Origin: Pyrinomonas methylaliphatogenes
Lineage (GTDB): Bacteria; Acidobacteriota; Blastocatellia; Pyrinomonadales; Pyrinomonadaceae
DNA: 64,000 nt
Reading direction: 5' to 3'
NCBI RefSeq assembly: GCF_000820845.2
Contig: NZ_CBXV010000003.1
Span: forward strand, 62,001-126,000
The notes beneath the pieces were generated by a model. That model made no database searches. It saw only the letters and a list, made by a program, of their open reading frames with translations, and was not told the DNA's origin. The position numbers and the translations under genes are program-made. Positions 3,643-20,381 of the stretch are shown piece after piece; positions within the stretch are counted from its first letter, which is position 1; each line of letters starts with the position of its first letter.

Positions 3643-6501
3643 ATGGTGGAGCGAAGATCTGCCAGCTTTCCGAAAAGGATGGCCGGGATGTTGAGAGGGG
3701 TCTGCGGAGGCATCTGCGCCGTTTTGCTGTTGATCGCCGGCGCACAGGCGCGCGCGGCCTCTTCGATCAGGACCGTTTACATCGTACCGACGAGCCACTA
3801 CGATTTCGGGTTCGTCGAGCCCCCTGAAGCGGTGCGCGAACGCGCCGCACGCCACATCTCCGAGGTCATTCGCGTCGCGCAAGCGGATCCGGACTTTCGC
3901 TGGACCATCGAGAGCGTGTGGCAGGTCAACGAGTGGTTAAAACGCGCCAAGGCTCCGACTTCCGTGCTCCCTAAGGATGAGGCGCGAATCGCTGCGCTCA
4001 TCAACTTGATCAAAAGCGGACGTCTCGCCCTTTCCGCCGTGTGGGGCAGCATGCACACCGATTTTATGGGGGTCGAGGAGCTCAACCGGCTCTGTTATGA
4101 CTACGTCAAACTCAAGCGCGCTTACGGGATCACGACCGAACTTGCGGTGATGGATGATGTTCCGGGCCATCCGATGAGTCTCCCTTCGGTGCTCAGCGCG
4201 AGCGGCGTGCGTTATCTGCTGGTCGGAGCCAATCTGGGGATCGGCCTGGGTGGCACTTCGCTCGCTCCGGGGCGCGTCCCTTTCTACTGGGAAGGGCCGG
4301 ATGGCGCGCGCGTGCTCACTTGGGTCAGCCAGACGGCGCGGGGCGGTTACACGGAAGCTCTGACCGATTACTACCTCGACCCGTTCACGCGCGATCCGTA
4401 CACGGGCAAGACGCCGTACGAGATGTTCAACCCACACGGGGCGGCGAAGGCTCCGCTCCAAATCATGGAAGAGGGCGTGAGCGCGTTGCTCAAGCGTTAC
4501 GCGGAGGCCGGTTACCCGTACGATGCCGTGCTCGTCATGTACGCGCACGACTTTCTCGAGCCGAGCAATGTCGCCAACCTCGAACGCGCCGTCCGCCTGT
4601 GGAACGGCGCGCGCAAATCGCCGCGATTGAAGATCGCGACACCGCCTGAATTCTTCCGCTACATCGAGAGCAAGTACGGCGCGCGACTTCCGACCTACCG
4701 CGGCGAGTGGTCCGGTCTCTGGTCCGAAGCCAAGACGCATTCGCCGCAGCTTAGCGCGCTCGCGCGCGCGGCGCACGATTGGACGCCTGCCGCGGAGACC
4801 CTTTGGAGCGCCGTGGCGATGACTCGGCCAGTGCCCCATCCGGTCGGCAACTTTTCCATCCTTTACGATCTGATGTTCACCTATGATGAACACAGCGGAG
4901 CCGGGAACACGGGCTGGCCGAAGCTGAACTCGTTCGCCGCCTTGCAGGAGCAGAATCGGCAGTATGTCGCTTATTTGACGCGCGCGCGCGCTGAATTGCA
5001 CTCGCTTTTCGAAGACGGCCTGCGGTTGCTTTCCGCTCCGATGAGGGCGGAGCGACGGGCGGAGAGCTGGCACTTGCTCGTCTACAATCCGCTTTCGTGG
5101 GCGCGCACGGATCTAGTCGAAGCGGCGCCGCCGGAAGAGGGGAAGCGCATCGTCGCTATCTATGACGAGGCGGAGCGGCGCGCGGTCGCCTTCGACATAG
5201 ATGAACGCGGTCGAGCCCTTTTCATCGCGCACGATGTCCCATCCGTCGGTTACAAAATCTTTCGGATCGAAGTAGCTCCTGGCGCGCCCGTTCCCACGCT
5301 TAAGAGCGAAACGACAGAGGATACATTGGAAAGCCAGCATTACCGCGTGCGCGTGCGCGCCGATGGGACTATTCAGAGCATCTTTTCGCTAGCGCAGCGG
5401 CGCGAACTCGTTGACGGCGCAAGCGAGCTCCCTTTCAATTACCTTCTGCGAACCGAAGGCGATGAGCCTTCGATGATCGCTTTGCCGCTCGCGCCGCAGG
5501 TGCGCGTCGAACGCGGGGCGGTGATCAAGCGCGCGATCATCGAGCGCCCGCGTTCAGCCTTCCCGCGCACAGTGATTACGCTTTATGACGACCTCGATCG
5601 CCTCGATCTGCGAAACGAGATCGATGCTTCGCGTCTGCCTTTCGTCGCCAACGGGAAGACGTGGCACGATTCGTACTTCTTCGTCTTCCCGTTCGCGCTC
5701 GATGCGTCCTCGCTCGTCATAAGGCCGGAGGGGCAGCGCGGTTTTCTGCGCCTGCCGGACGACTATCTGCCGGGCGCGCGGCGTGACGGCGTCACTTCAC
5801 AACACGTCATCGCTTTGAGCGATAAAAGGGGCGCGCTCGCGCTCGCCCATCGCCAATCTTTCCATTTCGTCTTTCATGGGTATGTGAGAACCGCACGCGC
5901 CTCGAGCGAACAAGCCTTTCCGGCGATCTTCACGGGCAAATGGCCGCTCGAGCGGGCGACGCTGTTCGCGAAAGCTTTCCGCTACGGCACGCAGAGCGAT
6001 ACGGAAGATGTGGGAGTGGCGAACATCGAAACGGTCGAGCCGGGGTTGGGCCACCGCTACCTTTTCGACTATTCGTTAGCTTCGTTCGCACAATTCGATC
6101 CGGTGGCGAGCGCGCGCTTCGGCTGGGAGCTGAACGTGCCGCTGCGAGCCGTCTACATCCCAGCCGTGCCGGAAGAGGCGAAGCGGAGCCTTTTCGGGGT
6201 GGACCAGTCGAACGTTCTGATCCTGGCGATCAAACCATCGAGCACGAACGATCTTTCAGGCATGGTGACGAGCACTCCGCTCGCGCCCCAGGCCAATCGC
6301 ACGTTCATCCTGCGCTTGCAGGAGATCGCCGGGCGAAGGACGCGCGTTCGAGTGTCATTGCCGGTCGGATTGAACGCGGCGCGCGTCCTCAGCTTAGACG
6401 AAGATCGCGTGATTCAAGCGTCGGTTCAAACGAATCCTTTGACCGTCGAACTGGGACCCTACGAGATCGTCACTGTGGAGATGGCAATCGCCAGGCCGTA
6501 A
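3643..6501 (+). CDS. Exported glycoside hydrolase family 38 (alpha-mannosidase-like)
   Basis: A 952-residue protein with a basic N-terminus and hydrophobic stretch (about residues 18-36, ending AQARAAS) that looks like a signal peptide. The mature part opens with IVPTSHYDFGFVEPPEA, the GH38 equivalent of the HxHND zinc-binding motif. AVMDDVPGHPMSLPS holds the expected nucleophile Asp, and MYAHDFLEPSN is a later zinc-ligand candidate. The rest is the usual all-beta C-terminal half. Family enzymes release mannose, or in some members other sugars, from glycans by a retaining mechanism. It lies 40 bases after the TonB receptor and 54 before the next glycosidase, so the three are probably one transcription unit. 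Exact linkage specificity is not predictable. Confidence 0.82.
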   Translation: MVERRSASFPKRMAGMLRGVCGGICAVLLLIAGAQARAASSIRTVYIVPTSHYDFGFVEPPEAVRERAARHISEVIRVAQADPDFRWTIESVWQVNEWLKRAKAPTSVLPKDEARIAALINLIKSGRLALSAVWGSMHTDFMGVEELNRLCYDYVKLKRAYGITTELAVMDDVPGHPMSLPSVLSASGVRYLLVGANLGIGLGGTSLAPGRVPFYWEGPDGARVLTWVSQTARGGYTEALTDYYLDPFTRDPYTGKTPYEMFNPHGAAKAPLQIMEEGVSALLKRYAEAGYPYDAVLVMYAHDFLEPSNVANLERAVRLWNGARKSPRLKIATPPEFFRYIESKYGARLPTYRGEWSGLWSEAKTHSPQLSALARAAHDWTPAAETLWSAVAMTRPVPHPVGNFSILYDLMFTYDEHSGAGNTGWPKLNSFAALQEQNRQYVAYLTRARAELHSLFEDGLRLLSAPMRAERRAESWHLLVYNPLSWARTDLVEAAPPEEGKRIVAIYDEAERRAVAFDIDERGRALFIAHDVPSVGYKIFRIEVAPGAPVPTLKSETTEDTLESQHYRVRVRADGTIQSIFSLAQRRELVDGASELPFNYLLRTEGDEPSMIALPLAPQVRVERGAVIKRAIIERPRSAFPRTVITLYDDLDRLDLRNEIDASRLPFVANGKTWHDSYFFVFPFALDASSLVIRPEGQRGFLRLPDDYLPGARRDGVTSQHVIALSDKRGALALAHRQSFHFVFHGYVRTARASSEQAFPAIFTGKWPLERATLFAKAFRYGTQSDTEDVGVANIETVEPGLGHRYLFDYSLASFAQFDPVASARFGWELNVPLRAVYIPAVPEEAKRSLFGVDQSNVLILAIKPSSTNDLSGMVTSTPLAPQANRTFILRLQEIAGRRTRVRVSLPVGLNAARVLSLDEDRVIQASVQTNPLTVELGPYEIVTVEMAIARP

Positions 6502-6555
6502 ACATCTCGCGGGCGAGTGCTGGACCGGCGGGGCTTGAGCGGACTTTTAACGACC

Positions 6556-8766
6556 ATGCGAAGATCGCGCAGAGATTTCCTCAAATTGACAGTTGCCGGA
6601 ACCGCGGCGGTGCCGTTGCTCGCCGATGCGTCGAGTTTTCAGCGAAGAAGCGCCAAGGATGCTCACGCTGCTGCCATCCCGACGGTCGAAGATCTACGCA
6701 GCGTGGCGATGGTCCATCGCTTCGGCGACCTGTTCAATCTGCCGGGATTGACGAACCAGTGGGGCTGCGCGCAGGCGGCGTTCGATCCAGTCGGCATACG
6801 GAACATCTCTTTCCCGCCTTACGCGCAAGGCGAGCAGAATACGGCGCCAGCGGGGGCGACGGGCGAAATCGTCACCGGCTTCCTCTACGTGGATGGCGAA
6901 TATTTCGCGTCGCTCGGCCTTCCGATCGAATTCGTTTGGCGACCGGATCGCATCGAGCGGCGCGCGCGTTACCGCGATTTCCAACTATCGAGTGCGATGA
7001 TCGTGCCGTTCGAACGGATGGCCGTCGCCGTCGCCTTCACGGTGGAGAATATCGGGCGCGCGCGGCAGGGCCTCGAATTAAGGCTCGGCTTGCGCGGCGG
7101 CGTCACAAAAAGCGTCGCGCCATGGGATCAGGCTTACTCTCCCGGCGAATTTGACAACGAGCATCTGGTAGACACCGAGCGCGGCGCCATCCTCTTCAAG
7201 TCGCGTCGCACGGCGGCTTACGCCATGCAGGGAGCCTATCCGCGCGCCGACGAAGTGCGCCCCGCCTGGCTCGTCTACCGTTTAAATCTAGCGCCCGGCG
7301 AGCGGCGCACGATCACATTCGTCAACGCGATCGGCGGGGACGAAAGGGCGGTCCGGCGCTCTTTCGATGAGCTGGCCCACAACTTCGAGCGCGAAGCTGT
7401 GCGCGTGCGCAAAGAGTGGGATGAAGAGCTTGCATCCGCTTTCACGCCGAACAATGCGCGTTTCTCGGGCCATCTGCCCACGCTCGTCACTTCGGAGGGA
7501 GCCATTCGCCGGCTCTATCACATGGCGGCGATGAGCGCGCTTTTCTTCAAGCGCACGACGCCCCATTCGATCTATGGGCGCACCTATGTGACGCTCGCGC
7601 CGCGCTACTGGCAGACGACCACCTTTTTGTGGGACATCTCGTTGAGCGCGATGTTGCTGGCGATGCTCGATCCTGCCGTTTTGCGGCGCATGATCGAGAC
7701 GTGGATGCAGCTCGACGTTCACAAGCATTTCGGCACCGAATATCTGACCGGCGCGGGCGTCGGTCCATGGTATTCGGTGAACGATTTTGCGATGTGCCGG
7801 ATGGCGCGCGAATACTTGCGTTGGAGCGGCGATCGCGCGTGGCTCGACAAACGGGTCGCTGGCGAGCGCGTGATCGATCGTCTCATCGCGTACGCCAGAC
7901 ATTGGCGCGCGCTCGACGTGAACGGCCACGGGTTGGCTGATTACGGTGGCATCTCGAATCTGCTCGAGGCTGTGAGCAACTACGTTCATGAAGTGGCGAG
8001 TTTGAACGCGGCGAACGTCTACAACTTGCGTTTCGCGGCGGAACTGCTTGCCGCGCGCGGCGAAACGGGACAAGCGCGCGCGATGAGCGCAGAGGCGGTT
8101 GATCTTGTGCGGCGCGTGCTCGAACTCTACGTGCCGGGAGAAGGCATCTGGCGTTGTCGTTTGCCCGATGGCTCTTACCACGAAGTGCGGCACTGTTATG
8201 ATTTCGGCACGGTGTTGACCTCGATCGGCGACGACTTGAGTTCACAGCAGAAAAGCGAGATGGTCCAGTTCTTCCGCCGCGAATTACAGACGCCGACGTG
8301 GATGCGCGCGCTTTCGACGCGCGACACGGATGTCACCTTCAGCATCCGCCCCGATCATCAATGGACCGGAGCGTATGCGGCGTGGCCCGCGCTCGCTTTG
8401 AGCGCGCTCTATCGAGCCGGGCGGGCCGATCTGGCCGTAGAATGGATGCGCGGGTTGGCCTCGAGCGCTGGGCAAGGACCGATCGCGCAAGCGCACTTTG
8501 CCGAAACCGCCTTTGCGCCGGAAGCTGGTGGGGGCGCGCGCAAGGCGCCGTCGGATCCGCCATACATCAACGATTGGGCTTGCGTCTCGGGCTGCGCGTA
8601 TCTCGAACCGATCGTCGAATCGCTCTTCGGCATACGGGCCGGTCTATTTGGCGAAATCTCCGCCGAACCGAATTTCGCCTCGTTCGACCCGCGTGCCGAG
8701 CTGCGTAATCTGCCTTATCAAGGGAAGCTTTATCTCGCTTCGCGGCGCGGCCTTGAACGGATCTGA
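6556..8766 (+). CDS. Tat-exported six-hairpin glycosidase-like protein
   Basis: About 736 residues. The ATG at 6556 is chosen over the upstream GTG at 6517 because it places a twin-arginine signal (RRSRRDFLKLTVAGTAAVP) at the N-terminus, meaning export in folded form. After an N-terminal beta-rich region (to about residue 270) comes a long helical part with repeated hairpins and aromatic/acidic clusters such as FLWDISLSAM, YSVNDFAM and DHQWTGAYAAWPAL, typical of the (alpha/alpha)6 fold of GH15/GH63-like enzymes. I cannot assign a GH family. Clustered with GH38 and a TonB receptor, it probably trims oligosaccharides in the periplasm. No strong ribosome-binding site is visible. Confidence 0.6.
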   Translation: MRRSRRDFLKLTVAGTAAVPLLADASSFQRRSAKDAHAAAIPTVEDLRSVAMVHRFGDLFNLPGLTNQWGCAQAAFDPVGIRNISFPPYAQGEQNTAPAGATGEIVTGFLYVDGEYFASLGLPIEFVWRPDRIERRARYRDFQLSSAMIVPFERMAVAVAFTVENIGRARQGLELRLGLRGGVTKSVAPWDQAYSPGEFDNEHLVDTERGAILFKSRRTAAYAMQGAYPRADEVRPAWLVYRLNLAPGERRTITFVNAIGGDERAVRRSFDELAHNFEREAVRVRKEWDEELASAFTPNNARFSGHLPTLVTSEGAIRRLYHMAAMSALFFKRTTPHSIYGRTYVTLAPRYWQTTTFLWDISLSAMLLAMLDPAVLRRMIETWMQLDVHKHFGTEYLTGAGVGPWYSVNDFAMCRMAREYLRWSGDRAWLDKRVAGERVIDRLIAYARHWRALDVNGHGLADYGGISNLLEAVSNYVHEVASLNAANVYNLRFAAELLAARGETGQARAMSAEAVDLVRRVLELYVPGEGIWRCRLPDGSYHEVRHCYDFGTVLTSIGDDLSSQQKSEMVQFFRRELQTPTWMRALSTRDTDVTFSIRPDHQWTGAYAAWPALALSALYRAGRADLAVEWMRGLASSAGQGPIAQAHFAETAFAPEAGGGARKAPSDPPYINDWACVSGCAYLEPIVESLFGIRAGLFGEISAEPNFASFDPRAELRNLPYQGKLYLASRRGLERI

Positions 8767-9012
8767 GCGTGCTCGTTGAATTTGGAAGTTGTGAGTTGTT
8801 TCCCACACGCCGATAGTTAGTCCTCATCCGCGCGCCTTTGCCAACTGCCCTCGAGTGTGGGAGCGCAAGTCGTTCCGTTGCAGCTTGCCCGCACCATTGA
8901 GTAGGATTCATCCAGTAATACCCTTCGAAATCGACCGGATAGTTCGCGCCCGAGCGTGGCGGTCCGGCGAGGGCTAAGAATCGTGAATCTCGATGAGGCG
9001 GGAAGAGGATCG
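8767..9012. other. Intergenic gap before the DeoR regulator
   Basis: 246 bases without a convincing gene. The only structure noticed is a distant inverted pair, TCCCACAC at 8801-8808 and GTGTGGGA at 8855-8862, with a 46-base loop, too far apart for a simple terminator. It probably contains the promoter of the downstream regulator, but no clear -35/-10 pair was recognised. Confidence 0.4.
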
Positions 9013-9804
9013 ATGGTTGACGAAGCGCAAAAGTTCAGCGAGCGTTCGCAGAAGATATTGCAAGAGTTGTTGCGCACCGGAGAGGTCTTTGTCGATGAGC
9101 TGGCGCGGCGATTGAAAGTTTCGCCGACGACCATTCGCCGTGACCTTACCGAATTGGAACGACAAGGGCTTTTACGTCGGACGCATGGCGGCGCCGTCCC
9201 GGTCGAGCCGATGCTCTATGAGCCTTTCCGCCATGTCTCCTCTTTTCAGGAGCAGGAGCGGCAGTTCGCGGCGGAGAAGCGACGGATCGGACTGGCGGCG
9301 GCGACTCTGATCGCCGATGGCGAAGTCGTCGCGATCGGCGCGGGGACGACGACGACGCAGGTCGCACGTAGCATACGCCATCGCCGAGGCATCACGGTCA
9401 TCACGAATGCGATCAACATCGCCATGGAATTGAGTCACCTCGATAACTTGAAGGTGTTCGTCACGGGCGGTCTGTTGAGCGAAGATTGGTTCGCGCTCGT
9501 CGGACCGATGGCGATCGATAATACGAGTCAGATCTTCGTCGATAAGGCGTTTGTCGGAGTGGATGGGATACACGCCGAGCGCGGCTTGACTTCGAACTAT
9601 CCGGATCAGGCGATGATCCATCGCGCCTTGCTGCGTCAGGCGCGCAAGAAGATCGTCGTCGCCGATCGTCGAAAATTGGGCGTGATCGGCACGGCGCTCA
9701 TCGCGCCGATCGCCGAGGTCGATATGCTCATCACCGACAAAGGGGCTTCGGAAGAATCTCTCGCCCCATTCATCGCACGGGGGCTTACGATTCGGCGCGT
9801 TTGA
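9013..9804 (+). CDS. DeoR/GlpR-family transcriptional regulator
   Basis: 263 residues from the ATG at 9013, which is preceded by GGAAGAGG at a good distance; an in-frame start at 8956 would add 19 untypical residues. N-terminal winged helix-turn-helix (SQKILQELLRTGEVFVDELA, then VSPTTIRRDLTELE and the family signature GLLRRTHGGAV), followed by a DeoR sugar-phosphate sensor domain of the ribose-5-phosphate isomerase-like fold, with GAGTTTTQVA and VTGGLLSEDWFALVGP. Such proteins usually repress sugar catabolic genes and respond to a phosphorylated sugar. Its position right after the glycosidases makes them the likely targets; no operator was identified. Confidence 0.9.
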   Translation: MVDEAQKFSERSQKILQELLRTGEVFVDELARRLKVSPTTIRRDLTELERQGLLRRTHGGAVPVEPMLYEPFRHVSSFQEQERQFAAEKRRIGLAAATLIADGEVVAIGAGTTTTQVARSIRHRRGITVITNAINIAMELSHLDNLKVFVTGGLLSEDWFALVGPMAIDNTSQIFVDKAFVGVDGIHAERGLTSNYPDQAMIHRALLRQARKKIVVADRRKLGVIGTALIAPIAEVDMLITDKGASEESLAPFIARGLTIRRV

Positions 9805-9806
9805 AG

Positions 9807-11414
9807 ATGACCATGAAAGCGCTCCTGCAAAGGCTGGCGTGCCGCTTCGCGTGTAAGGGGGAGCGGTCATTCGTCGCCGTCATGCTCGGCACCTTGGTGA
9901 TCGCTTGCGCCGCTTTTGCGGGCGACGTGTTTGCGCAACGGCGCACAGGGCATATCGCGCGCGCCGTCGCGTTGATCGAGCGAGGGGAGCTCGTTCAGGC
10001 CGAGGCGGAGTTACGCGCCGCTTTGGCTGAACGGCGTGACGAAGCCGAAGCTTTCAACTTGCTCGGGGTGATTCGCGCGCGGCAAGGGCGGACGCGCGAA
10101 GCCGAGGGGTTTTTCCGGCGCGCGATCGAGCTGGCGCCGGACGCGATCGGCGCGCGCATCAATCTGGGCCAGCTTTATATGGAATCCCACGATTGGGATC
10201 GGGCGTTATTGGCGTTTAGCGAGGCCGCTCGGCTCGCGTCCGATAACGAGGAGGTGGACCGCAACCTCGCCGCGATCTATGCGCAGCGCGGCGATTTCAG
10301 CCAGGCGATCGCGCATCTACGAAAGATACCAGCGGCGAATCGAACCGCTCCGGACCTTTATCTTCTCGTCAAATCGTATTTGGAATTGGCAGATAAAGAC
10401 GAGGCGCTTGAGCTAGCGCGCGCATCGCTTGATCGGTTGCCGTCGGACGATGCTGCGAATTTGGCGACGCTCTTTGCGGCGCGCGGTTTGCTGGACGACG
10501 CGATCTCGCTGCTCGAAGCGGCGCAGAGGAGGGACCCGCGCTCTTTCGCGGTTCACTACAACTTGGCGACGGCCTATTATCAGAAGAAGGATCTGGCGCG
10601 CGCCGAAGAGCATTACATGGCGGCGCTCGCCATCAAGCCTGAAGATGTCGCGACGTTGCGCGCGCTGGCGCGCGTTGCAAACGCGCGCGGGGAGTGGGAA
10701 AAAGCGCTATCTCACCTTGCGCGCGCGCGGAAGCTCGCTCCCACATCCACTGAGATCCTATATGAATTCGGGGTCGCCGCATTGCGTTTGAACCTCTTCC
10801 TCGATGCGTTGCCGATCTTCGAACAGTTGCAGAAGCTCCGGCCAAACGAACCGCCGTATATCTACATGCTGGCCGCAGCCTATTTGCAGAAGGGCGATCG
10901 TCCGCAGGCGGAGACCTTGATGCGGCGTTACATCGCATTGCGTCCGAACGACCCGGCGGGATACTACCAATTGGGATTGGCGCTTTACGGGTTGAACAGG
11001 TTTGCCGAAGCCCGTCAGGCGCTGGAGCGCAGCCTATCTTTGCGCGAACATCCGGAGACGGAGTTCCTGCTCGGTCTGGTCGCGGAGAACGAGGGATCGC
11101 TCGATGAAGCGATCCAGCGCATGGAGCGCGTGCTCGCCCTTGCGCCGGAGCATGCGGCGGCACAGGCGACGCTCGGCATCGCGTTGGCCAAGCGCGGCGA
11201 TTACGAGAGGGCGCGTCTTGCGTTAGAGCGAGCGATCGCGCTCGATCCGCGAAATCGGCGCGCGCATTATCAATTGGGTTTGGTCTATGCGCGGCTCGGC
11301 GACAAGGGACGTGCGCGCCAGATGATCGAGATCGCCGAAAAACTGCGCGTCGAAGAGCGCGACCGCGAGCGCGTGATCTTCAAATTGGTCGAACCGCCAA
11401 CGGAGGAAAGGTGA
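9807..11414 (+). CDS. Secreted or membrane-anchored TPR-repeat protein
   Basis: About 535 residues. ATG codons at 9807 and 9813 are both possible, and an in-frame TTG at 9801 overlaps the deoR stop, so the two genes are tightly linked. A basic stretch is followed by a hydrophobic segment (AVMLGTLVIACAAFAGDVFA), a signal peptide or anchor. Nearly all the rest is tandem 34-residue tetratricopeptide repeats; examples are AEAFNLLGVIRARQGRTREA, FAVHYNLATAYYQKKDLARA and RRAHYQLGLVYARLGDKGRA. TPRs are protein-interaction scaffolds, and nothing shows a catalytic role. The partner is unknown; the context suggests an envelope-located helper of the glycan block. Confidence 0.8.
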   Translation: MTMKALLQRLACRFACKGERSFVAVMLGTLVIACAAFAGDVFAQRRTGHIARAVALIERGELVQAEAELRAALAERRDEAEAFNLLGVIRARQGRTREAEGFFRRAIELAPDAIGARINLGQLYMESHDWDRALLAFSEAARLASDNEEVDRNLAAIYAQRGDFSQAIAHLRKIPAANRTAPDLYLLVKSYLELADKDEALELARASLDRLPSDDAANLATLFAARGLLDDAISLLEAAQRRDPRSFAVHYNLATAYYQKKDLARAEEHYMAALAIKPEDVATLRALARVANARGEWEKALSHLARARKLAPTSTEILYEFGVAALRLNLFLDALPIFEQLQKLRPNEPPYIYMLAAAYLQKGDRPQAETLMRRYIALRPNDPAGYYQLGLALYGLNRFAEARQALERSLSLREHPETEFLLGLVAENEGSLDEAIQRMERVLALAPEHAAAQATLGIALAKRGDYERARLALERAIALDPRNRRAHYQLGLVYARLGDKGRARQMIEIAEKLRVEERDRERVIFKLVEPPTEER

Positions 11415-11497: not shown

Positions 11498-11540
11498 TTG
11501 ACACTCGGCGCTCGTCGTATAAAATACGAGCGTTCGTTTT
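11498..11540 (+). promoter_or_regulatory. tetR promoter overlapped by a palindromic operator
   Basis: TTGACA at 11498-11503 and TAAAAT at 11520-11525 with a 16-base spacer form a strong sigma70-type promoter. The 18-base element 11523-11540 matches the perfect palindrome AAAACGAACGTTCGTTTT found before the downstream receptor at 16 of 18 positions, and it covers the end of the -10 box and the expected start site. This is the layout of an autorepressed TetR gene. Confidence 0.75.
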
Positions 11541-11598
11541 CCTTACGGGCGCGGGTTTCGAAAAGGATCATCAATCGCTGAGCTTGAAGGCGAGGGCG

Positions 11599-12279
11599 GT
11601 GCCGAAACTGAGTCAAGAGGCGATTCAGGAAAGACGGGCGCGAATCGAGGAAGCGGCCAAGGAGCTTTTCATCAAGCGGGGCTTTCATGCCACCTCGATG
11701 CGCGACATCGCCGCGCGCGCCGGCACATCGCTTGGCAACTTGTACAACTACTACCGGACCAAGGAGTCGATTCTTGAGTCGATCATCGCGCGCTACCAGA
11801 AGGTGATCGACGCCCGGTTGCGCGCCATGCTCGACGAGATCCGCGACCCGTTCGATGCCGAGGATCTGGCGCGCTTCGGACGGCGCGTCAAAGAGCTGGT
11901 CGCCGACCATGCCGACTACTGGTTGCTTATGTACATCGACGTGCTGGAGTTCGAAAACCGCCATTTCCGCAAGATGTTCGTCGATCTGGCGCGCAACATG
12001 CGGCAGCGGTTCGGCGAACGGTTCAAACAGCTCAAACGCAGCGGCGCGCTCTACGACGGGGTCGATCCGGCGGTCGGGTTCACCGCTGCCTACATGCAGT
12101 TCTTCAACTACTTTCTGGTCGAACGCCTCTTTGGCGGCGACCGCCATTTCGGTCTCAGCGACGAGCGCGTGATCGCGCACCTGACGGAGATCTTCCGGCG
12201 CGGCGTGCTCCATCCACGACACTTGGAACGCGAGGAGCGGATGGGGAAGCGGACAACGAGGCGCGCTTCGAAAGCTTGA
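11599..12279 (+). CDS. TetR-family transcriptional repressor
   Basis: About 226 residues from the GTG at 11599 (weak GAGG just upstream). Longer in-frame starts would begin upstream of the promoter identified at 11498-11525, so they are rejected. Residues about 1-60 are a classic TetR helix-turn-helix: RIEEAAKELFIKRGFHATSM, then RDIAARAGTSLGNLYNYYRT with the KESI motif. The rest is a helical ligand pocket and dimer domain, and the C-terminus is basic (GKRTTRRASKA). The operator on its own promoter and two more before the next gene indicate autoregulation and control of the receptor and lipid genes. The ligand may be an acyl-CoA or fatty acid by analogy with FadR-type TetR proteins; this is inference. 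Confidence 0.9.
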   Translation: MPKLSQEAIQERRARIEEAAKELFIKRGFHATSMRDIAARAGTSLGNLYNYYRTKESILESIIARYQKVIDARLRAMLDEIRDPFDAEDLARFGRRVKELVADHADYWLLMYIDVLEFENRHFRKMFVDLARNMRQRFGERFKQLKRSGALYDGVDPAVGFTAAYMQFFNYFLVERLFGGDRHFGLSDERVIAHLTEIFRRGVLHPRHLEREERMGKRTTRRASKA

Positions 12280-12320
12280 AGCGGCGCGCTTGAAATCAGC
12301 CTCGATCTTTAGCGTTCATT

Positions 12321-12366
12321 AAGACAGACGTTCGTTTTTATTAACACGAAAACGAACGTTCGTTTT
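12321..12366 (+). promoter_or_regulatory. Tandem TetR-type operators before TonB receptor 2
   Basis: A perfect 18-base palindrome, AAAACGAACGTTCGTTTT, lies at 12349-12366. A second copy at 12321-12338 matches it at 15 of 18 positions, with centres 28 bases apart. A -10-like TATTAA (12339-12344) sits between them, with only a weak TTCATT at the -35 position. The element matches the operator on the tetR promoter, so the neighbouring TetR protein is the likely ligand. Confidence 0.75.
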
Positions 12367-12404: not shown

Positions 12405-15400
12405 ATGAGCGATCTCGGACGAGCCTTGCGGACGATCCTGTGGGGCGCGCTGTTGGCGGCGCTCGCGCACGGGCAAGGGGCGACGGGCAACGTGAGCGGC
12501 ACGGTGACGGACGCTAACGGTGCGGCGGTCGCCGGCGCCACCGTCACGTTGACGAGCACTGCGCTCGCCTTCACGCGCCAGACCAGCACGGATGCGAGCG
12601 GAGCCTTCGCCTTTCAACTCCTGCCGCCGGGCGATTACCGCATCGAAGTCGCGGCGCGCGGCTTCAAAACGGTGGTCATCACGCCGGTCGTCGTGCGCGT
12701 CACCGAGACGACGGCGCTCGACGTGCGGCTCGAACCGGCGCTCAATCCCGAAACGGTGACCGTCAGCGCGGCCCCGCCGCTCGTGCAGCGCGAATCATCG
12801 CAGATCGGGCGCGTCATCGACGAGCGCCCCATCCGGCAACTGCCGCTGCCGACGCGCAACTTCCAGCAACTGCTCGCGCTCTCGCCGGGCGCCTACGCCG
12901 GCGTGGCGAACAACACCGAACTCGGGCGCGGCGACGCGATCATCGTCGTCAACGGGCAGCGGACGACGAGCAACAACGTGCGCATCAACGGCATCGACGC
13001 CAACTCCATTGGCACCAACTCGACGCCGAACATCGCCGTTCCGGCCACCGACAGCCTCCAAGAGTTCATCGTGCAGACGAGCCTGTACGACGCCTCGCAG
13101 GGGCGCAACGCCGGAGGCAATGTCGAAGCGGTGACCCGTTCGGGCGGGAACGAGTTTCACGGCAACCTCTATTACTTCTTCCGCAACCGCGCGCTCAACG
13201 CCAACGACTTCTTCTTGAACGCCGCCGGTCAACCGCGCCCCGTTTTAACGCGCAACCAATTCGGCGCGACGCTCGGCGGTCCGGTCATTCGCGACCGCTT
13301 CTTCTTCTTCGGTTCCTATCAGGGGACGCGCGAGCGCAACGGCGCATCGCTCAGCAACAGCTTGATGTTCCCGACGATCCCCGCCGCGCTGCGCGACGAC
13401 AACCGGACGGCGGCTGGACTGGCCGCAGCGTTCGGCGTGCCTGCAGCGGCGATCAGTCCCATCGCGCTCGCGTTGCTGCAGGCGCGCTTCGCCGACGGTC
13501 GCTACGTGATCCCGTCGCCGACCACCGCGTCGGGGTTGACGCCGATCTCGAGCATCTCGCGTTTTCGCGAGGACCAGATCAACGCCAACTTCGATCTCAT
13601 CCTCAGCCCCAAGCACACCCTCTCGGCGAAGAATTTCTTCGCGACCAATCCGACGCACCAAGCCAACTACAACTTCGCCGGATTGGGCAACGGGCCGACG
13701 CAGCTTCCCGGCTTCGGCGGGCAACTCGACATCATCCAGACGCTCATCTCGCTCACGGACACTTATGTCATCAACCCGAACACGGTCAACCAAGCGCGCT
13801 TCGGCTTCAGCCGTCTGCGCGTCACGTCCGTGCCAGATGAACCGTTCACGGCTCGCCAGTTCGGCATCAACAATCCGCTCGGCAGCATCTTCCCCGGGAT
13901 GCCGACGATCACCGTCACGGGCCTGTTCACGCTCGGTTCTTCGCCCTTTGCCGATCAATCGTCGCGCATCAACGCTTTTACGCTGCATGATACGATTTCA
14001 TTCGTCGCGGGTCGCCATCGTTTGCGCGTCGGGGGCGAATACCGCCGCTCGCAGGTCAACTTCTACTTCAACGCATATTCGCGCGGGCAGTTGATCTTTC
14101 CGACGTTTGCGAACTTCCTGCTCGGCCAATCGATCTCGATCATCGGCTCGGGCGTTTTCGACCGCGCGTTGCGGACCAACGACCTCTACGCCTTCGTCCA
14201 AGACGATTGGAAGGTCAACGAACGGTTGACGCTCAATCTCGGCTTGCGCTACGACTTCTTCGGCTTGCCCTATGACACGCGCGGGCGTCTGGTCAACTTC
14301 CTGCCGGACCAGTTTCGCGTCGGTCCGCCGCCCAACGGCTTTGTGCAAGCGGAGAATGCGGCCGCTCCGTTGCCGGGCGTGCCGCTCGTCACGAAGTCGC
14401 TCGCGCCGAACGATTGGAACAATTTCGCGCCGCGCGTCGGGTTCGCCTACCAGATGGATCAACGCGGACGACTCGTGCTGCGCGGCGGCTACGGCATCTA
14501 TTACGATCGCTTCTCGACGCGCTACGCGAACACGCAACTGCTCGACTACCCGTACCTGACGCTGGCGACGGCGATCTTCAGGCCGCTAGCGGACCCGTTC
14601 TCCCCCGTCCCTCTGCCGGGCGCCTTTCCGCTGACGCCGACCGTGCCGTCGCCGCTCGGCGCGCCGATCAGCGGCATCTATGTCGCGCCCGACATCAGGA
14701 CGCCTTACGTGCAGCAGTACAGCTTGAATCTGCAGTGGGAGTTCGCGCGCGATCTGCTGCTGGAAATCGGCTACGTCGGTTCCAAGGGGACGAAGTTGCT
14801 GCAGGTGGTGACGCTCAATCAACCCGTTTATGTTCGCGCGAGCAACCAATTCGTCATCCCCTTGAGCCCGTTCCTGTCGACGCAGAAGAACGTCGCTGGC
14901 GGCATCCAGCAGGTGCAGACGAGTTCCAACTCGCACTACGACTCGCTCCAAGCGAGCGTGACGAAACGGCTGAGCGCCGGGCTCCAATTTCTGGCCGCCT
15001 ACACCTTCGGCAAATCGATCGATTACTATTCGGGTTCTGCGGTCAACGAGCTCGCGGCCGTGCCGGGCGATCAACTGAACTGGCGCGCCAACCGCGGCCC
15101 GTCGGACTTCGACCGCACGCACCGCTTCGTCGCGAGCTTCGTTTACGATCTTCCGCGCGCAGCGACTGATTCCCAATTAGCGCGGGCGCTGTTGAACGGG
15201 TGGCAGGTCGCCGGCATCGTCGTCTTCCAATCGGGCACGCCCTTTTCGGTGGTCGATGCGCCGAACAATTTCATCGTGCAACGAGCCAACATCGCCCCCG
15301 GCTTTGCCGGGCGGATCGCGGGCAGCGGCGACGTGCGGCGGCGGCTAGATGCCTATTTCAACACGGCGGCCTTCGTCATCTCGCGCCCCAATCTGAACCC

Positions 15401-15701
15401 GAACATCAACACGGGCGTGCCGAACAATCCGTTCTTCGATCCGAACGCGCCTTTCGGCAACACGGGGCGCAACTTCCTGCGCGGGCCGGGCCAGCGTAAT
15501 GTGGATTTTTCGGCCATCAAACGGTTCCCGCTGCGCGAGCGCACCGATCTGGAGTTTCGCGCCGAGTTCTTCAATCTCTTCAACTGGGCCAATTTCGCTA
15601 ATCCGAACAGCAACGTCGCCGTACCGCAAACTTTCGGGCGGATCACGGCGACGAGCAGCGGCCCGCGCGTCATCCAATTCGCTTTGAAGCTTAACTTCTG
15701 A
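12405..15701 (+). CDS. Oar-like TonB-dependent outer-membrane receptor 2
   Basis: 1098 residues starting at an ATG preceded by GAAAGGAGAGC. A signal peptide (LRTILWGALLAALAHG) is followed by a carboxypeptidase-regulatory-like domain (GNVSGTVTDANGAAVAGATV, about residues 28-110), a plug with RQLPLPTRNFQQLL and VVNGQRTTSNNVRINGIDAN, and a beta-barrel to the C-terminus (VIQFALKLNF, terminal Phe). It resembles receptor 1 in layout but not closely in sequence. Control by TetR operators and the following acyl-activating genes suggest uptake of a hydrophobic or acyl-containing substrate rather than sugar. That is an inference from context. Confidence 0.88.
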   Translation: MSDLGRALRTILWGALLAALAHGQGATGNVSGTVTDANGAAVAGATVTLTSTALAFTRQTSTDASGAFAFQLLPPGDYRIEVAARGFKTVVITPVVVRVTETTALDVRLEPALNPETVTVSAAPPLVQRESSQIGRVIDERPIRQLPLPTRNFQQLLALSPGAYAGVANNTELGRGDAIIVVNGQRTTSNNVRINGIDANSIGTNSTPNIAVPATDSLQEFIVQTSLYDASQGRNAGGNVEAVTRSGGNEFHGNLYYFFRNRALNANDFFLNAAGQPRPVLTRNQFGATLGGPVIRDRFFFFGSYQGTRERNGASLSNSLMFPTIPAALRDDNRTAAGLAAAFGVPAAAISPIALALLQARFADGRYVIPSPTTASGLTPISSISRFREDQINANFDLILSPKHTLSAKNFFATNPTHQANYNFAGLGNGPTQLPGFGGQLDIIQTLISLTDTYVINPNTVNQARFGFSRLRVTSVPDEPFTARQFGINNPLGSIFPGMPTITVTGLFTLGSSPFADQSSRINAFTLHDTISFVAGRHRLRVGGEYRRSQVNFYFNAYSRGQLIFPTFANFLLGQSISIIGSGVFDRALRTNDLYAFVQDDWKVNERLTLNLGLRYDFFGLPYDTRGRLVNFLPDQFRVGPPPNGFVQAENAAAPLPGVPLVTKSLAPNDWNNFAPRVGFAYQMDQRGRLVLRGGYGIYYDRFSTRYANTQLLDYPYLTLATAIFRPLADPFSPVPLPGAFPLTPTVPSPLGAPISGIYVAPDIRTPYVQQYSLNLQWEFARDLLLEIGYVGSKGTKLLQVVTLNQPVYVRASNQFVIPLSPFLSTQKNVAGGIQQVQTSSNSHYDSLQASVTKRLSAGLQFLAAYTFGKSIDYYSGSAVNELAAVPGDQLNWRANRGPSDFDRTHRFVASFVYDLPRAATDSQLARALLNGWQVAGIVVFQSGTPFSVVDAPNNFIVQRANIAPGFAGRIAGSGDVRRRLDAYFNTAAFVISRPNLNPNINTGVPNNPFFDPNAPFGNTGRNFLRGPGQRNVDFSAIKRFPLRERTDLEFRAEFFNLFNWANFANPNSNVAVPQTFGRITATSSGPRVIQFALKLNF

Positions 15702-15762
15702 GGGGCGAAAATGGCACGCGAATCCCAATGGGCCGCGCGCTTGGATGCAGAAGCGAGGCGCG

Positions 15763-15860
15763 GGTTCGAGCTGAAGAAACGATATGAGTGGAGTTGGGTT
15801 CTGAGCTAGGCAAACCAGGAGACCTAAGCGGTTCGAGCTGAAGAAGCGATATGAGTGGAG
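15763..15860. repeat. Junction duplication: 31-base repeat, 36-base insert, repeat
   Basis: 15763-15793 and 15830-15860 are identical except for one A/G difference, with a unique 36-base segment (15794-15829) between them; the period is 67. The second copy ends at the GGAGGGAG ribosome-binding site of the hydrolase gene. No similarity extends beyond the repeat edges, so this is not a simple tandem duplication of the whole period. Confidence 0.9.
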
Positions 15861-15866
15861 GGAGTT

Positions 15867-16712
15867 ATGCCTTACGTTGAACTCGACGGCGCGAGAGTTT
15901 ACTACGAAACGCATGGCGCGGGCGCGCCGCTCGTGCTCATCCCAGGCTTCGGCGCGGGCGCGTGGATCTGGTTCAAACAAGTGCCAGCATTGGAGCGCGC
16001 GTGCCGGGTCATACTCTTCGACCCGCGCGGCGTCGGGCGCTCCGTGGCGCGCGACGAACCGTTCTCAACCAAGCTCTTAGCCGACGACGTGGCGGCGCTT
16101 CTCGACCATTTGGGGATCGAACGCGCCGACGTCGCTGGCGCTTCCTTCGGCGGCTTCGTCGCGCTGGAGTTCGCGCTCGAGCATCCGGACAGGTTGAAAA
16201 AGTTGATCCTCTGTTGCACGAGCGCTGGCGGCGCAATGCACGTCGCGCCCGACGCCGAAGTGCTCGTGCGTCTTGCCTCCACGCAAGGGCTCAACACCGA
16301 AGAGCGGATGCGCGAGAACCTTCTGCTCGCTTTTTCGCCCGAATACGTCGCGCGCGAACGTGATGAAGTGGAGCGCGTCATCGCTCTGCGCGCAGCCTGT
16401 CCGGTGCCCGAGTTCGTCTATCGGCGACAACTGCAAGCGGCGCTCGCCTTCGATGCGGGAGCGCGGCTCGGCGCGATCTCGTCTCCGACGCTGGTCATCA
16501 CGGGCGATGCGGACCGGATCGTGCCGGCAGAGAATTCGCGCCGGCTGGCGGCGGCGATCCCGCGATCTCGCCTGCAGGTGATCGCGGGCGGCAGTCACTC
16601 GTTCTTCATCGAACAGGCCGAAGAGTTCAACCGCGCCGTGCTCGACTTCCTCTTCGAGGATCAGCGGGACTGCGACGAGGACGTGCGCCGCCAAGGCGCG
16701 AAAGGAGAATGA
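15867..16712 (+). CDS. Alpha/beta-fold hydrolase
   Basis: 281 residues from the ATG at 15867, which has the strong Shine-Dalgarno GGAGGGAG a few bases upstream. It shows an alpha/beta-hydrolase core: oxyanion loop LVLIPGFGAGAWIW, FDPRGVGRS, nucleophile elbow GASFGG (Ser about residue 93), acid in VITGDADRIVP, and His in AGGSHSFF near the C-terminus. The complete Ser-Asp-His triad predicts an esterase, thioesterase or lactonase-type activity in the cytoplasm. Its stop overlaps the start region of the KAS III-like gene, so the two are co-translated and probably act on the same acyl compound. Substrate unknown. Confidence 0.88.
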   Translation: MPYVELDGARVYYETHGAGAPLVLIPGFGAGAWIWFKQVPALERACRVILFDPRGVGRSVARDEPFSTKLLADDVAALLDHLGIERADVAGASFGGFVALEFALEHPDRLKKLILCCTSAGGAMHVAPDAEVLVRLASTQGLNTEERMRENLLLAFSPEYVARERDEVERVIALRAACPVPEFVYRRQLQAALAFDAGARLGAISSPTLVITGDADRIVPAENSRRLAAAIPRSRLQVIAGGSHSFFIEQAEEFNRAVLDFLFEDQRDCDEDVRRQGAKGE

Positions 16713-17698
16713 TGCGTTACGCCAAGATCATCGGGACCGGCTCGCACGTGCCCGAAAAAGTTTTGACCAATGCCGATTTGAGTCGCATGCTCGGCGAAGA
16801 CATCGATGATTTCGTCTCGAATGTGTTGGGTATACGCGAGCGCCACGTTTGTGCGGAAGACGAAAGCACGGCGGATCTAGCGACCGCGGCGGCGCGCCGC
16901 GCGCTCGAAGCCTCTGGAGTCGAGGCCGCCGACCTCGACCTCATCATACTTGCGACTGATACGCCCGAATACCTGTCGCCCGCAACCTCTGTTGTCGTGC
17001 AGCACCGTCTGGGCGCGCGCCGCGCCGGCACGTTCGACGTCAACTGCGCGTGCGCCGGTTTCGTCACCGCCTTCGACGTCGCGGCCAAGTACATCGCCGC
17101 CGATGAGTCCTACCGCCACGTGCTCGTCATCGGCGCTTACGCGATGAGCAAGTACATCGACTGGAGCGAGAAGAAGACGGCGACGATCTTCGCCGATGGC
17201 GCGGGCGCGATCGTCTTGCGCGCGGCGGATGAACCGGGTCCGCTCGCCTCCAAACTCATCGCCGATGGGAGCTTTCACGATTACATGGGGATCTACGCGG
17301 GCGGCGCGCGCCTGCCCATCACGGAAGAGGTGTTGCGCGAAGGGCGTTGGAACAAGGTCCGCTTCGCGAAGAAGTATCCGGCGGAAGTCAACCTCGAAGG
17401 CTGGCCCGCGATCATCGGCGATGTGCTGCGCCGCAGTGCGCTTTCGGTGGACGACGTGGCGCTCTTTCTCTTCACGCAGGTCAACCGCAGCACGATCTAC
17501 GAGGTGATGGACCGGCTCGGCGCGCCGCGAGAGAGGGCGCACACCGTGATGGAGAAATGGGGCTACACGGGATCGGCGTGCATCCCGATGGCGCTCGACG
17601 ATGCCGTGCGCGCCGGCAAGGTCCAACGAGGCGACGTCATCGTGATGTGCGCTTCGGGCGGCGGGTTGAACATGGCCTGCGTCGCTTACAGGTGGTAA
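16712..17698 (+). CDS. KAS III-like (FabH-related) thiolase-fold protein with altered active site
   Basis: 328 residues. ATG codons at 16709 and 16712 overlap the hydrolase stop; the second has better spacing to AAAGGAG. The fold is clearly FabH-like: N-terminal YAKIIGTGSHVPEKVLTN, nucleophile motif NCACAGF (Cys114), FADGAGAIVL and the C-terminal ASGGGLNMA. Aligning with FabH, PHQAN becomes FTQVN (His to Thr255) and GNTSAAS becomes GYTGSAC (Asn to Tyr285). Two of the three catalytic residues of a decarboxylating synthase are therefore absent, while the acyl-accepting Cys is kept. It may be an acyltransferase or a non-decarboxylating condensing enzyme. Ordinary fatty-acid initiation is unlikely. 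Confidence 0.8.
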   Translation: MRYAKIIGTGSHVPEKVLTNADLSRMLGEDIDDFVSNVLGIRERHVCAEDESTADLATAAARRALEASGVEAADLDLIILATDTPEYLSPATSVVVQHRLGARRAGTFDVNCACAGFVTAFDVAAKYIAADESYRHVLVIGAYAMSKYIDWSEKKTATIFADGAGAIVLRAADEPGPLASKLIADGSFHDYMGIYAGGARLPITEEVLREGRWNKVRFAKKYPAEVNLEGWPAIIGDVLRRSALSVDDVALFLFTQVNRSTIYEVMDRLGAPRERAHTVMEKWGYTGSACIPMALDDAVRAGKVQRGDVIVMCASGGGLNMACVAYRW

Positions 17699-17963
17699 AG
17701 ACGAAACGCAACGAACAGGCCGATGTGAGTCCAACACTGTGCATCGATTTGGCATTCGAAAGACGGAGCGCAAAGACGGACTGGTGAGTTCTTAGATAAC
17801 GACAACGAACGTGGCGACGAACGAGTTGCTGGGCTGAAGCTGGCGTTTGATAGCTTTTCGGCAACGATCACGACGCGCGATCGGTCCTTCCTGAAGTTGC
17901 GCGATGAAGCGCGGACGCTTCTTGAACAGCCCCTTTCGTCCGGTCGCCGAGCGGGTTTGAGCG
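17699..17963. other. Intergenic gap before acyl-CoA synthetase
   Basis: 265 bases. A half-site ACGAACGT at 17805-17812 resembles the TetR operator of this locus, but its other half is not palindromic. A weak 15-base echo of the gene end (17697-17711 against 17759-17773) is present. A plus-strand frame is open through 17729-17963 into the next gene but has no good start, so I do not call it. Confidence 0.35.
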
Positions 17964-19766
17964 ATGAGGTACAAGAACGTTTACGCGCTCTTCCGCGAGC
18001 GCGTCGCGCAGATGCGAGATCGCCCGGCCTTTTGGGAGCGCGGACCGACCGGCTGGACCAGCATCGGTTGGGCCGAATGGGAGCGCGACGCGCACCGTTT
18101 CGCCTGGGCATTGCTCGCTGAAGGTCTAACGCCGGGCGCGGCCGTTTGCATCCTCGCGGGCAACGCGCCCGTGTGGCCAACGAGCGACGTCGGGACGATC
18201 ATCGCCGGCGGCGTTTCGGTCGGCATCTACCCGACCAGTTCCGCCGAACAATGCCGCTACATCATCGATCATTCGGATGCGGAGTTCGTCGTCGTCGACA
18301 CCGTGGCGCAGGCCGAGAAGATCATGCGCGTTCGCCATGAGCTGCCCAAACTCAAAGGCATCATCGCCGTTGACGAAGAGGCCGCTCGGCGGTTCGCCCT
18401 CGTGGCCTACCGCGAATTCTTGCGACGGGGCGAAGCCGCCAGAGCGCGCGTCGAAGCTGAGCAGCGGCGGCGGGCCAGCGAAGCGCACGCCGACGAGACG
18501 GCGATCATCGTCTACACGTCGGGGACGACCGGACTGCCAAAGGGCGCGTGTCTGAGCCACCGCTACATCATCAACAGCGTCGAATCGCTGCGCGCGACCG
18601 TGCCCATCTACGACTGGGACGTGACCTTCTCCTATCTTCCCTACTGCCACGTCGCCGAACGGATCTCGGGGCTTTACAATCGGCTCTACGCTGGAACGGC
18701 GGCCCACTTCGTCACGGATATATCAAAGCTCGATGAGTACATGACCGAGGTGCGCCCGACGGTCTTCGCCAGTCTCCCGCGGTTTTTCGAGAAGATCTAC
18801 GCGCGCATCCAATCAGACCTTGCGCGCGACACAGAGCGCGAGCGCGCGGCCTTTCGTGAAGCGTTGAAGCTGGGCCATCAGGTGGCGAGCTTGCGGCGCG
18901 CGCGGCAACAGATCCCAAGCGAACTACAGCGCGAATACGAACGGCGAGCCCGGCCCGTTCTCGCCCGCGTCCACGACTATTTCGGCGGCAGGTTGCGCTT
19001 AGCGACATCGGGCGGCGCGCCGCTGCCTGTGGAGATCGGCGAGTTCTTCGACGCCTGCGGCATCACCATCCTGCAAGCGTACGGGTTGACGGAGAACGTC
19101 TGCGTCGCTTTCAACCGACCGGACCGCTACAAGTTCGACGCGGTCGGTCCACCGATGCCCGGATGTGAAGTGCGCATCGCCGAAGATGGCGAGATCATGG
19201 TTCGCAGCCAGATGATGTTCAGCGGCTACTACAAAGAGCCGGAACGAACCGCCGAGGTCGTGCGCGACGGGTGGTTGTTGACAGGAGACTTGGGCGAACT
19301 CGACGCCGATGGTTTCCTGCGCATCACGGGGCGCAAGAAGGAGTTGATCGTCACCTCCACGGGGAAGAAGATCGCGCCATCGTTCATCGAGAACCTATTG
19401 AAAGCGGAACCGCTCATCAGTCAAGCTTTCGTCTACGGCGAAGGGCGAAGTTACTTGGTCGCGCTCCTGACGCTCAACCGCGCCGAAGCGGAGCGGTGGG
19501 CGCGTTCTTCGGGGATCGCGTTCAAGGACTTCGCTGAGCTGATCACGCGACCCGAAATCGAAGCGATGGTCCGGCGTGCGGTCGAACAAGTCAACGCGCG
19601 CGTCTCTTCAACGGAGCAGATAAAGAGGTTTCTCATTCTCGACCGCGACTTCGAGATCGAGCGTGATGAGTTGACGCCGACGCTGAAGCTTCGCCGCGAG
19701 ACGATCGCGCGCCACTTCGCCGATCAGATCGCTTGGCTTTATGGGGAAGCGCGCCCTATAGATTAG
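17964..19766 (+). CDS. Long-chain acyl-CoA synthetase (AMP-binding family)
   Basis: 600 residues. It activates a fatty acid to acyl-AMP and then acyl-CoA. Family motifs are in order: P-loop YTSGTTGLPKGACLSH (about residue 180), FSYLPYCHVAERISGLY, RLATSGGAPLPVEIGEF, ILQAYGLTENVCVAFNRP, the GWLLTGDLG aspartate and the hinge region TGRKKELIVTSTGKKIAPS with the C-terminal lysine region. The length and the YCHVAER segment match the FAA1/FadD15-like group rather than short-chain enzymes. The start has only a weak ribosome-binding site. It is the central acyl-activating enzyme of the block and would feed both the KAS III-like protein and the adjacent MaoC hydratase. Confidence 0.9.
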   Translation: MRYKNVYALFRERVAQMRDRPAFWERGPTGWTSIGWAEWERDAHRFAWALLAEGLTPGAAVCILAGNAPVWPTSDVGTIIAGGVSVGIYPTSSAEQCRYIIDHSDAEFVVVDTVAQAEKIMRVRHELPKLKGIIAVDEEAARRFALVAYREFLRRGEAARARVEAEQRRRASEAHADETAIIVYTSGTTGLPKGACLSHRYIINSVESLRATVPIYDWDVTFSYLPYCHVAERISGLYNRLYAGTAAHFVTDISKLDEYMTEVRPTVFASLPRFFEKIYARIQSDLARDTERERAAFREALKLGHQVASLRRARQQIPSELQREYERRARPVLARVHDYFGGRLRLATSGGAPLPVEIGEFFDACGITILQAYGLTENVCVAFNRPDRYKFDAVGPPMPGCEVRIAEDGEIMVRSQMMFSGYYKEPERTAEVVRDGWLLTGDLGELDADGFLRITGRKKELIVTSTGKKIAPSFIENLLKAEPLISQAFVYGEGRSYLVALLTLNRAEAERWARSSGIAFKDFAELITRPEIEAMVRRAVEQVNARVSSTEQIKRFLILDRDFEIERDELTPTLKLRRETIARHFADQIAWLYGEARPID

Positions 19767-19796
19767 CTGGTTCCGGCGCCCTTCCGCGCAAGATCC

Positions 19797-20210
19797 TCAC
19801 CGATCCCGCTCAAGATCCTCGACGAGGACGACCGCTTCGCCGCGGATCACCGTCTCCCCGCGCTGATTGACGCAGATGGTTTCGAGCGTCACGATGGGCT
19901 TGTCTTCGCGTATGTTTGTGATCGCGACTTGCGCCGTGATGGTGTCATTCGGGTAGATCGGGGCGGTGAACTGGAGCGTCTGACTGAGGTAGATGGTCCC
20001 GGGTCCGGGGAGTTCGTTGGCCAACAAGGCGGAGATGAGCGACGCGCCGAGCATGCCATGCGCGATGCGCCGTCCGAATCTAGTCCGGCGCGCGAAATCA
20101 TCATCGAGGTGGACCGGGTTTCGGTCGCCGGTCAGTTCGGCGAATCGTTCGATATCGTCCGCCGTGATCGTCTTTTGAAAGGAGGCGCTATCGCCGATTT
20201 TCAATCTCAT
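19797..20210 (-). CDS. MaoC-like (R)-specific enoyl-CoA hydratase
   Basis: 137 residues, a single hotdog domain. The ATG at 20208-20210 begins MRLKIGDSASFQKTITADD, the usual start of the family; longer open frame upstream is non-conserved. The hydratase signature is intact: LTGDRNPVHLDDDFA then RIAHGMLGASLISALL, giving the Asp/His pair. Such enzymes add water to enoyl-CoA to give (R)-3-hydroxyacyl-CoA. The gene faces the acyl-CoA synthetase across a 30-base gap. Part of its 3' end (GAGGATCTTGAGCGG) is repeated with a change just beyond its stop, period 21. Confidence 0.88.
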   Translation of the reverse strand: MRLKIGDSASFQKTITADDIERFAELTGDRNPVHLDDDFARRTRFGRRIAHGMLGASLISALLANELPGPGTIYLSQTLQFTAPIYPNDTITAQVAITNIREDKPIVTLETICVNQRGETVIRGEAVVLVEDLERDR

Positions 20211-20381
20211 AAGACCGAAGCGAGCGAAGATGGATTCGGCAGTGAATATAGCACAGGGGGCTGTGCGGGGGCGATCCGTTTGGGGGAGGATGGCGCGACG
20301 CTGGGCCAGCGGTTTGCAGATTCGGGCGGACGGATGTAGACTTTCGTTCGCTTCGAAAACCAACCAAGCCGGAGGACGATC

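Follow-up and report, generated by a model that had tools for sequence, protein, structure and literature searches.

The 64,000-nucleotide stretch of Pyrinomonas methylaliphatogenes DNA analysed here (the window) carries a gene for a TetR-family regulator followed by a gene for a TonB-dependent receptor, and copies of one palindrome lie in front of both genes. This raises the question of whether the palindromes are operators of the TetR protein, which genes they would control and which signal would release the repressor. The features concerned are the following.

11498-11525, + strand: tetR promoter, with -35 TTGACA at 11498-11503, a 16-nt spacer and -10 TAAAAT at 11520-11525
11523-11540: predicted operator O1, 16/18 match, matrix score 29.1, located across the last bases of the -10 and the expected tetR transcription start
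11599-12279, + strand: tetR, TetR-family regulator of 226 aa, GTG start, TetR_N (PF00440) E=2.8e-16
12321-12338: predicted operator O2a, 15/18 match, matrix score 23.4, upstream member of the receptor pair
12349-12366: predicted operator O2b, perfect 18-bp palindrome, matrix score 34.8, 38 nt 5' of the receptor ATG
12405-15701, + strand: TonB-dependent Oar-like outer-membrane receptor of 1098 aa, OMP_b-brl_4 E=1.2e-213 plus CarboxypepD_reg
15867-16712, + strand: alpha/beta-hydrolase, Abhydrolase_1 E=1.1e-36; the frame is open from 15855, with the probable ATG at 15867
16709-17698, + strand: KAS III-like protein, ACP_syn_III and its C-terminal domain; Cys113, Thr256 in place of His, Tyr286 in place of Asn
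17964-19766, + strand: long-chain acyl-CoA synthetase-like AMP-binding enzyme, AMP-binding E=2.1e-71
19797-20210, - strand: MaoC-like dehydratase, PF01575 E=7.7e-25, the sole MaoC-domain match in the genome

Candidate operators in the window and the genome

The predicted operator is the 18-bp palindrome AAAACGAACGTTCGTTTT. O2b carries it without mismatch, O1 with two mismatches and O2a with three, in agreement with the three copies that the first-pass annotation had described. Dinucleotide shuffles of the window give an expectation of 0.03 matches to the 18-mer. In the whole genome (3,788,560 bases in 16 contigs), only one further place with at most three mismatches was found, and the reversed-pattern control gave zero matches at the same threshold. 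This extra copy (C5:74564-74581) lies within a 116-aa coding frame, which from its residues we take to resemble a nucleotidyltransferase; because of its position inside a coding frame it was put down to chance and not counted as a fourth operator. The first-pass annotation had named random scatter of the motif through the genome as the finding that would speak against its reading. As the motif is not scattered, this objection does not apply. A looser pattern that allows for natural variation matched the three window sites at zero mismatches and four dispersed places in the genome at one mismatch. Taking the pattern searches together, only three intergenic sites in the genome fit well. A literature search for the 18-mer returned nothing relevant.

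The genome was covered by pattern search, and a matrix scan was carried out over the window. The matrix was built from 64 sites, all of them from outside Pyrinomonas, and this cross-genus matrix ranks the three window sites first to third (34.8, 29.1 and 23.4). Outside the operators, nothing in the window scored above 4.1, and shuffled windows reached at most 9.5. The half CGTTCGTTTT is the better conserved of the two halves of the palindrome. A half-site before the synthetase gene (17805), pointed out in the first-pass annotation, is indeed present, but its role as an operator did not hold up: ACGAACGT occurs at six places in the window, three of them within the operators, and the copy at 17805 is absent from the top matrix scores. 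We therefore treat it as noise.

The tetR promoter was recognised in a promoter scan with 11 of 12 consensus bases. Since its -10 hexamer occupies 11520-11525, O1 overlaps the last three bases of TAAAAT, as had been claimed for the 16/18 copy. We placed the tetR start at the GTG at 11599, because orthologues begin there with MPKLS and an ATG. The distance from operator to start is 58 nt in the window, compared to a shorter 2-17 nt in other genera. The AlphaFold2 model of the protein (pLDDT 89) is nearly all-helical, and with its TetR_N helix-turn-helix and all-helical C-terminal domain the protein has the architecture of the TetR family; the putative palindromic operator at its own promoter is a further family trait.

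Besides an operator role, the O2a/O2b pair could be read as the intrinsic terminator of tetR. The two copies can form a 13-pair stem that is followed by CGTTTTTC. However, the single match of this kind compares with a shuffle expectation of 1.6 and thus lies below it, so that termination was rejected as the main role of the pair. In addition, the palindrome before the receptor is single and free of a loop in other genera, and tetR is preceded by the same sequence at its -10. We consider a terminator in place of operators highly improbable; in Pyrinomonas alone, termination could be a minor secondary role of the pair.

Conservation of sites and gene order in Blastocatellia

For comparison we used relatives from the Pyrinomonadaceae and from other Blastocatellia. 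Of the other genomes searched, 18 contained strong TetR orthologues, and a further set came from 35 loci of named Acidobacteriota records, with partial overlap between the genomes. A site with at most four mismatches lies within 100 bp 5' of tetR in 34 of 37 testable loci, compared to 0.1% in shuffles, and the interval from tetR to the receptor contains a site with at most three mismatches in 33 of 35 loci, compared to 0.03% in shuffles; the loci are related and these counts are therefore not independent events, while the sequence flanking the sites has freely diverged. Two loci have the receptor and lack the second site (L042 and L109). Three others (L045, L085 and L107) have no orthologous receptor beside tetR and carry only the tetR site. 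The receptor operator pair is a trait of Pyrinomonas, found in the window and in a congeneric genome (G001), and an independent doubling was seen in L044. The gene order tetR, receptor, alpha/beta-hydrolase, KAS III-like protein and acyl-CoA synthetase is conserved as well. The identity, conservation and specificity of the sites and the order of the genes are thus established by comparative sequence evidence. Because about three dozen related loci share the arrangement of gene plus site, the switch is almost certainly real, and of an ordinary, known kind.

The position of the sites bears on the direction of control. In almost every genus, the start of the operator coincides with the end of the -10 hexamer at both promoters, and the layout of TTGACA and ATAA followed directly by the operator was seen in most tetR orthologues. 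Since the operator covers the -10 and start region, simple repression is expected, and we regard repression of both the tetR and the receptor promoter as very probable. Some TetR proteins do activate transcription (NCBIfam names FasR an activator), and a possible -10, TATTAA at 12339-12344, directly follows O2a, so that an activating or mixed action at the receptor promoter was considered. A single operator on the -10 and start region of both promoters is, on the other hand, the position of a blocking repressor, which makes activation improbable.

It was also considered that another regulator might bind the palindromes. The gene of a DeoR protein (8956-9804) lies 1.8 kb upstream, and binding by the window TetR is itself deduced from the arrangement. 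However, the sites track tetR and not the DeoR gene, searches with the window DeoR returned no partner in the syntenic loci, and in one relative (G027) a lone distant MFS gene with a site shares its contig with tetR. We give binding by DeoR or a similar protein next to no weight, and with high confidence assign the predicted operators to the window TetR.

The MFS gene of G027 is homologous to the transporter of the cluster, and an operator of its own lies about 30 bp before the gene start. This operator (L123:8362-8379) is the third copy there, and two PhaC-like genes and a MaoC gene lie nearby. Of the four contexts of extra matches in relatives that were opened, it was the only one that made sense. 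The other pattern matches at one or two mismatches in the relatives were mostly as numerous as those of the reversed-pattern control; matches in G024 and G023 were set aside as lying inside unrelated frames, and one in G007 (C213) as lying 5' of a different TetR gene.

Further tetR copies were noticed in two relatives. In G001, a contig end (C469:5438-5587) holds a second tetR fragment, 80-83% identical and with an operator, and contig C424 carries a tetR copy that is 99% identical; the fragment comes perhaps from another strain or from contamination. L091 (record JACQZQ010000003, 10001-13415) contains a second tetR paralogue and an operator-like site before a gene for a large patatin phospholipase-domain protein. 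This site is directly 3' of TTGACC-17-TATAAA; in the upstream region of the paralogue itself no recognisable site was seen.

The receptor gene and its downstream enzymes

Downstream of the operator pair, the receptor is a clear member of the Oar-like TonB-dependent receptors (Pfam OMP_b-brl_4). Orthologues with 43-71% identity stand at the same place in other genera. Several dozen Oar-like receptors with this domain are encoded in the 3.8-Mb genome (65 matched stretches), and only this one has the operator. The first-pass annotation had proposed that TetR controls its own promoter and that of the receptor, and that the regulon probably extends to the hydrolase, KAS III-like and synthetase genes. 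Judged by the conserved sites and gene order across Blastocatellia, both the core and the extension of this predicted regulon find support.

A scan of 15600-20500 for promoter-like patterns and for terminator-like patterns on the + strand returned none. This is consistent with transcription of the genes as one operon; the intergenic gaps of 165 nt between receptor and hydrolase and of 265 nt between KAS III-like and synthetase genes could hold unrecognised promoters. Just 5' of the hydrolase start, a 31-nt leader, GGTTCGAGCTGAAGAAACGATATGAGTGGAG, occurs as two direct copies with 97% identity (15763-15793 and 15830-15860). The duplication is probably recent and local and takes in the ribosome-binding region.

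The hydrolase has a nucleophile motif GxSxGG and a catalytic H that are mostly conserved, and its best NCBIfam matches are enol-lactonases of the PcaD type, under the cutoff. The synthetase scores 372.7 bits with NCBIfam FadD11, under the cutoff of 950 bits. Many genera add a second hydrolase, a MaoC dehydratase and an MFS transporter to the cluster, some also a Lipase_2 lipase, and PhaC-like genes are among the cluster partners in other genera; in the genome studied here, no Lipase_2 is encoded. MaoC orthologues of other genera are co-directional and 3' of the synthetase, whereas in Pyrinomonas the gene is inverted. As it lies on the opposite strand and has no operator, the window MaoC is probably outside the cis regulon. 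A cluster of tetR, KAS III-like and synthetase genes without a receptor was observed in L046 (G058, 5579-10930, minus strand), interleaved with two genes for PhaC-like polyester synthases.

The KAS III-like protein is nearest to FabH structures and does not have the complete Cys-His-Asn catalytic triad of KAS III (FabH). In 14 of 14 aligned sequences Cys113 is kept (NCACAGF), the His of HQAN is replaced by Thr (FTQVN) and the Asn by Tyr (GYTGSA). Because both residues are replaced in all 14, standard decarboxylating condensation is unlikely, and acyl transfer or hydrolysis would be the more plausible activity. The genome encodes two further KAS III-type proteins. The trio of thiolase, hydrolase and AMP-ligase had brought OleABC(D) hydrocarbon synthesis into view. 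This was rejected, since the thiolase is nearest to FabH and its His and Asn are gone; an OleD-type reductase was not seen in the conserved cluster.

Related regulators and the probable signal

The TetR fold nearest to the model of the window protein is FadR of Sulfolobus acidocaldarius (SaFadR; Saci_1107; PDB 6EN8, 6EL2; PMC6449355) in its DNA-bound form, with a TM score of 0.69 by query and 0.80 by target, Z 16.1 and an rmsd of 2.9 over 191 residues. Other structures, among them a Mesorhizobium TetR, DesT, FasR and EthR, come next with Z 14-16 and are not clearly separable from SaFadR. Acting from four sites, SaFadR keeps a cluster for lipases and beta-oxidation repressed; acyl-CoA releases it, whereas free fatty acids do not (PMC6449355). 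Like the proposed window TetR, it is a local autoregulated repressor with few genomic sites, and its gene stands among genes for lipases or esterases and fatty-acid enzymes (PMC6449355). On the other hand, SaFadR is archaeal, shares only about 20% identity with the window protein and recognises a 16-bp site. Its non-autoregulatory sites lie at least 130 bp upstream of promoters, whereas the window sites lie on the -10 region, and the window cluster, unlike that of SaFadR, includes a TonB receptor.

FadR of Thermus thermophilus (TtFadR, TTHA0101) and Bacillus FadR are TetR proteins that respond to acyl-CoA, as is proposed here for the window TetR. TtFadR aligns with it over residues 9-130, with NYY in the recognition region of both, but the TtFadR site, TTRNACYNRGTNYAA, differs from the window operator. 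Against the NCBIfam model of Bacillus FadR, the window protein scored 26.7 bits, compared to a cutoff of 200. In gene content, the locus corresponds to a FadR-type regulon, with genes for hydrolysing lipids and for activating or oxidising fatty acids clustered under predicted operators. In the window these are the synthetase and the hydrolase; relatives contribute Lipase_2, MaoC and patatin.

The operator sequence itself leads to a different regulator. O2b contains AACGAACGTTCGTT, which at 12351-12364 equals the consensus AACnAACGTTnGTT of PaaR, the TetR protein TTHA0973 of Thermus thermophilus (PMC6651687), and is the sole exact match in the genome. It might be, then, that the same repressor and operators serve an inducer or substrate other than fatty acyl-CoA, such as an aromatic acyl-CoA as for PaaR, a 3-hydroxyacyl compound or a hydrophobic ligand that enters in free form through the receptor. 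The enol-lactonase matches of the hydrolase, the PhaC-like genes and MaoC that adjoin the cluster in some genera, and a fold list that includes EthR and the flavonoid regulator FrrA, with several TetR structures within 1-2 Z units of SaFadR, would fit such a ligand. However, PaaR controls phenylacetate-degradation genes, and among the typed genes of the window cluster and of the orthologous clusters no paa genes were recognised. Additionally, the lipase, the patatin phospholipase and the synthetase of long-chain type suggest lipids, and the acyl-CoA-binding TetR proteins SaFadR, DesT and FasR rank high among the fold matches. A non-fatty ligand is thus a serious possibility, but not the expected one. 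The identity of O2b with the PaaR consensus serves as a warning that similarity of operators does not give the ligand.

Our preferred reading, which we hold to be probable, is that the window TetR is a local autoregulated repressor of an operon for the uptake of lipids or acyl-esters and is released by acyl-CoA. Here we infer binding, direction of repression, co-transcription, ligand and substrate. A TetR dimer would bind the O2a/O2b pair before the TonB receptor as well as O1, which lies over the -10 and start region of tetR, and would thereby block RNA polymerase at the tetR and receptor promoters. The receptor promoter would drive an operon of receptor, alpha/beta-hydrolase, KAS III-like protein and acyl-CoA synthetase. 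Acyl-CoA made by the operon's own synthetase from imported lipid or acyl-ester would be the signal that releases the repressor, so that uptake and activation are induced. On gene content and fold, we rate the chances of acyl-CoA being the inducer as even. Strain K22 of P. methylaliphatogenes is a thermophilic acidobacterium of subdivision 4. The carbon sources published for it comprise peptides, proteins and carbohydrates and include no lipids, which counts against the lipid model (PMC4644332).

No comparable regulon in Acidobacteriota was found described in a literature search. More speculatively, and in our estimate rather unlikely in full, the locus may represent a lipid-acquisition regulon specific to Blastocatellia, in which TetR couples the acyl-CoA level to an Oar-like lipid receptor and the KAS III-like protein without His and Asn carries out a new, non-condensing acyl transfer alongside hydrolase and synthetase. 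These genomes encode dozens of TonB receptors with unassigned cargo. The clean footprint of the operators would give one of them a regulator and, with lipids or acyl-esters, a likely class of substrate, and it draws attention to a conserved KAS III-like enzyme for which normal condensing activity is improbable.
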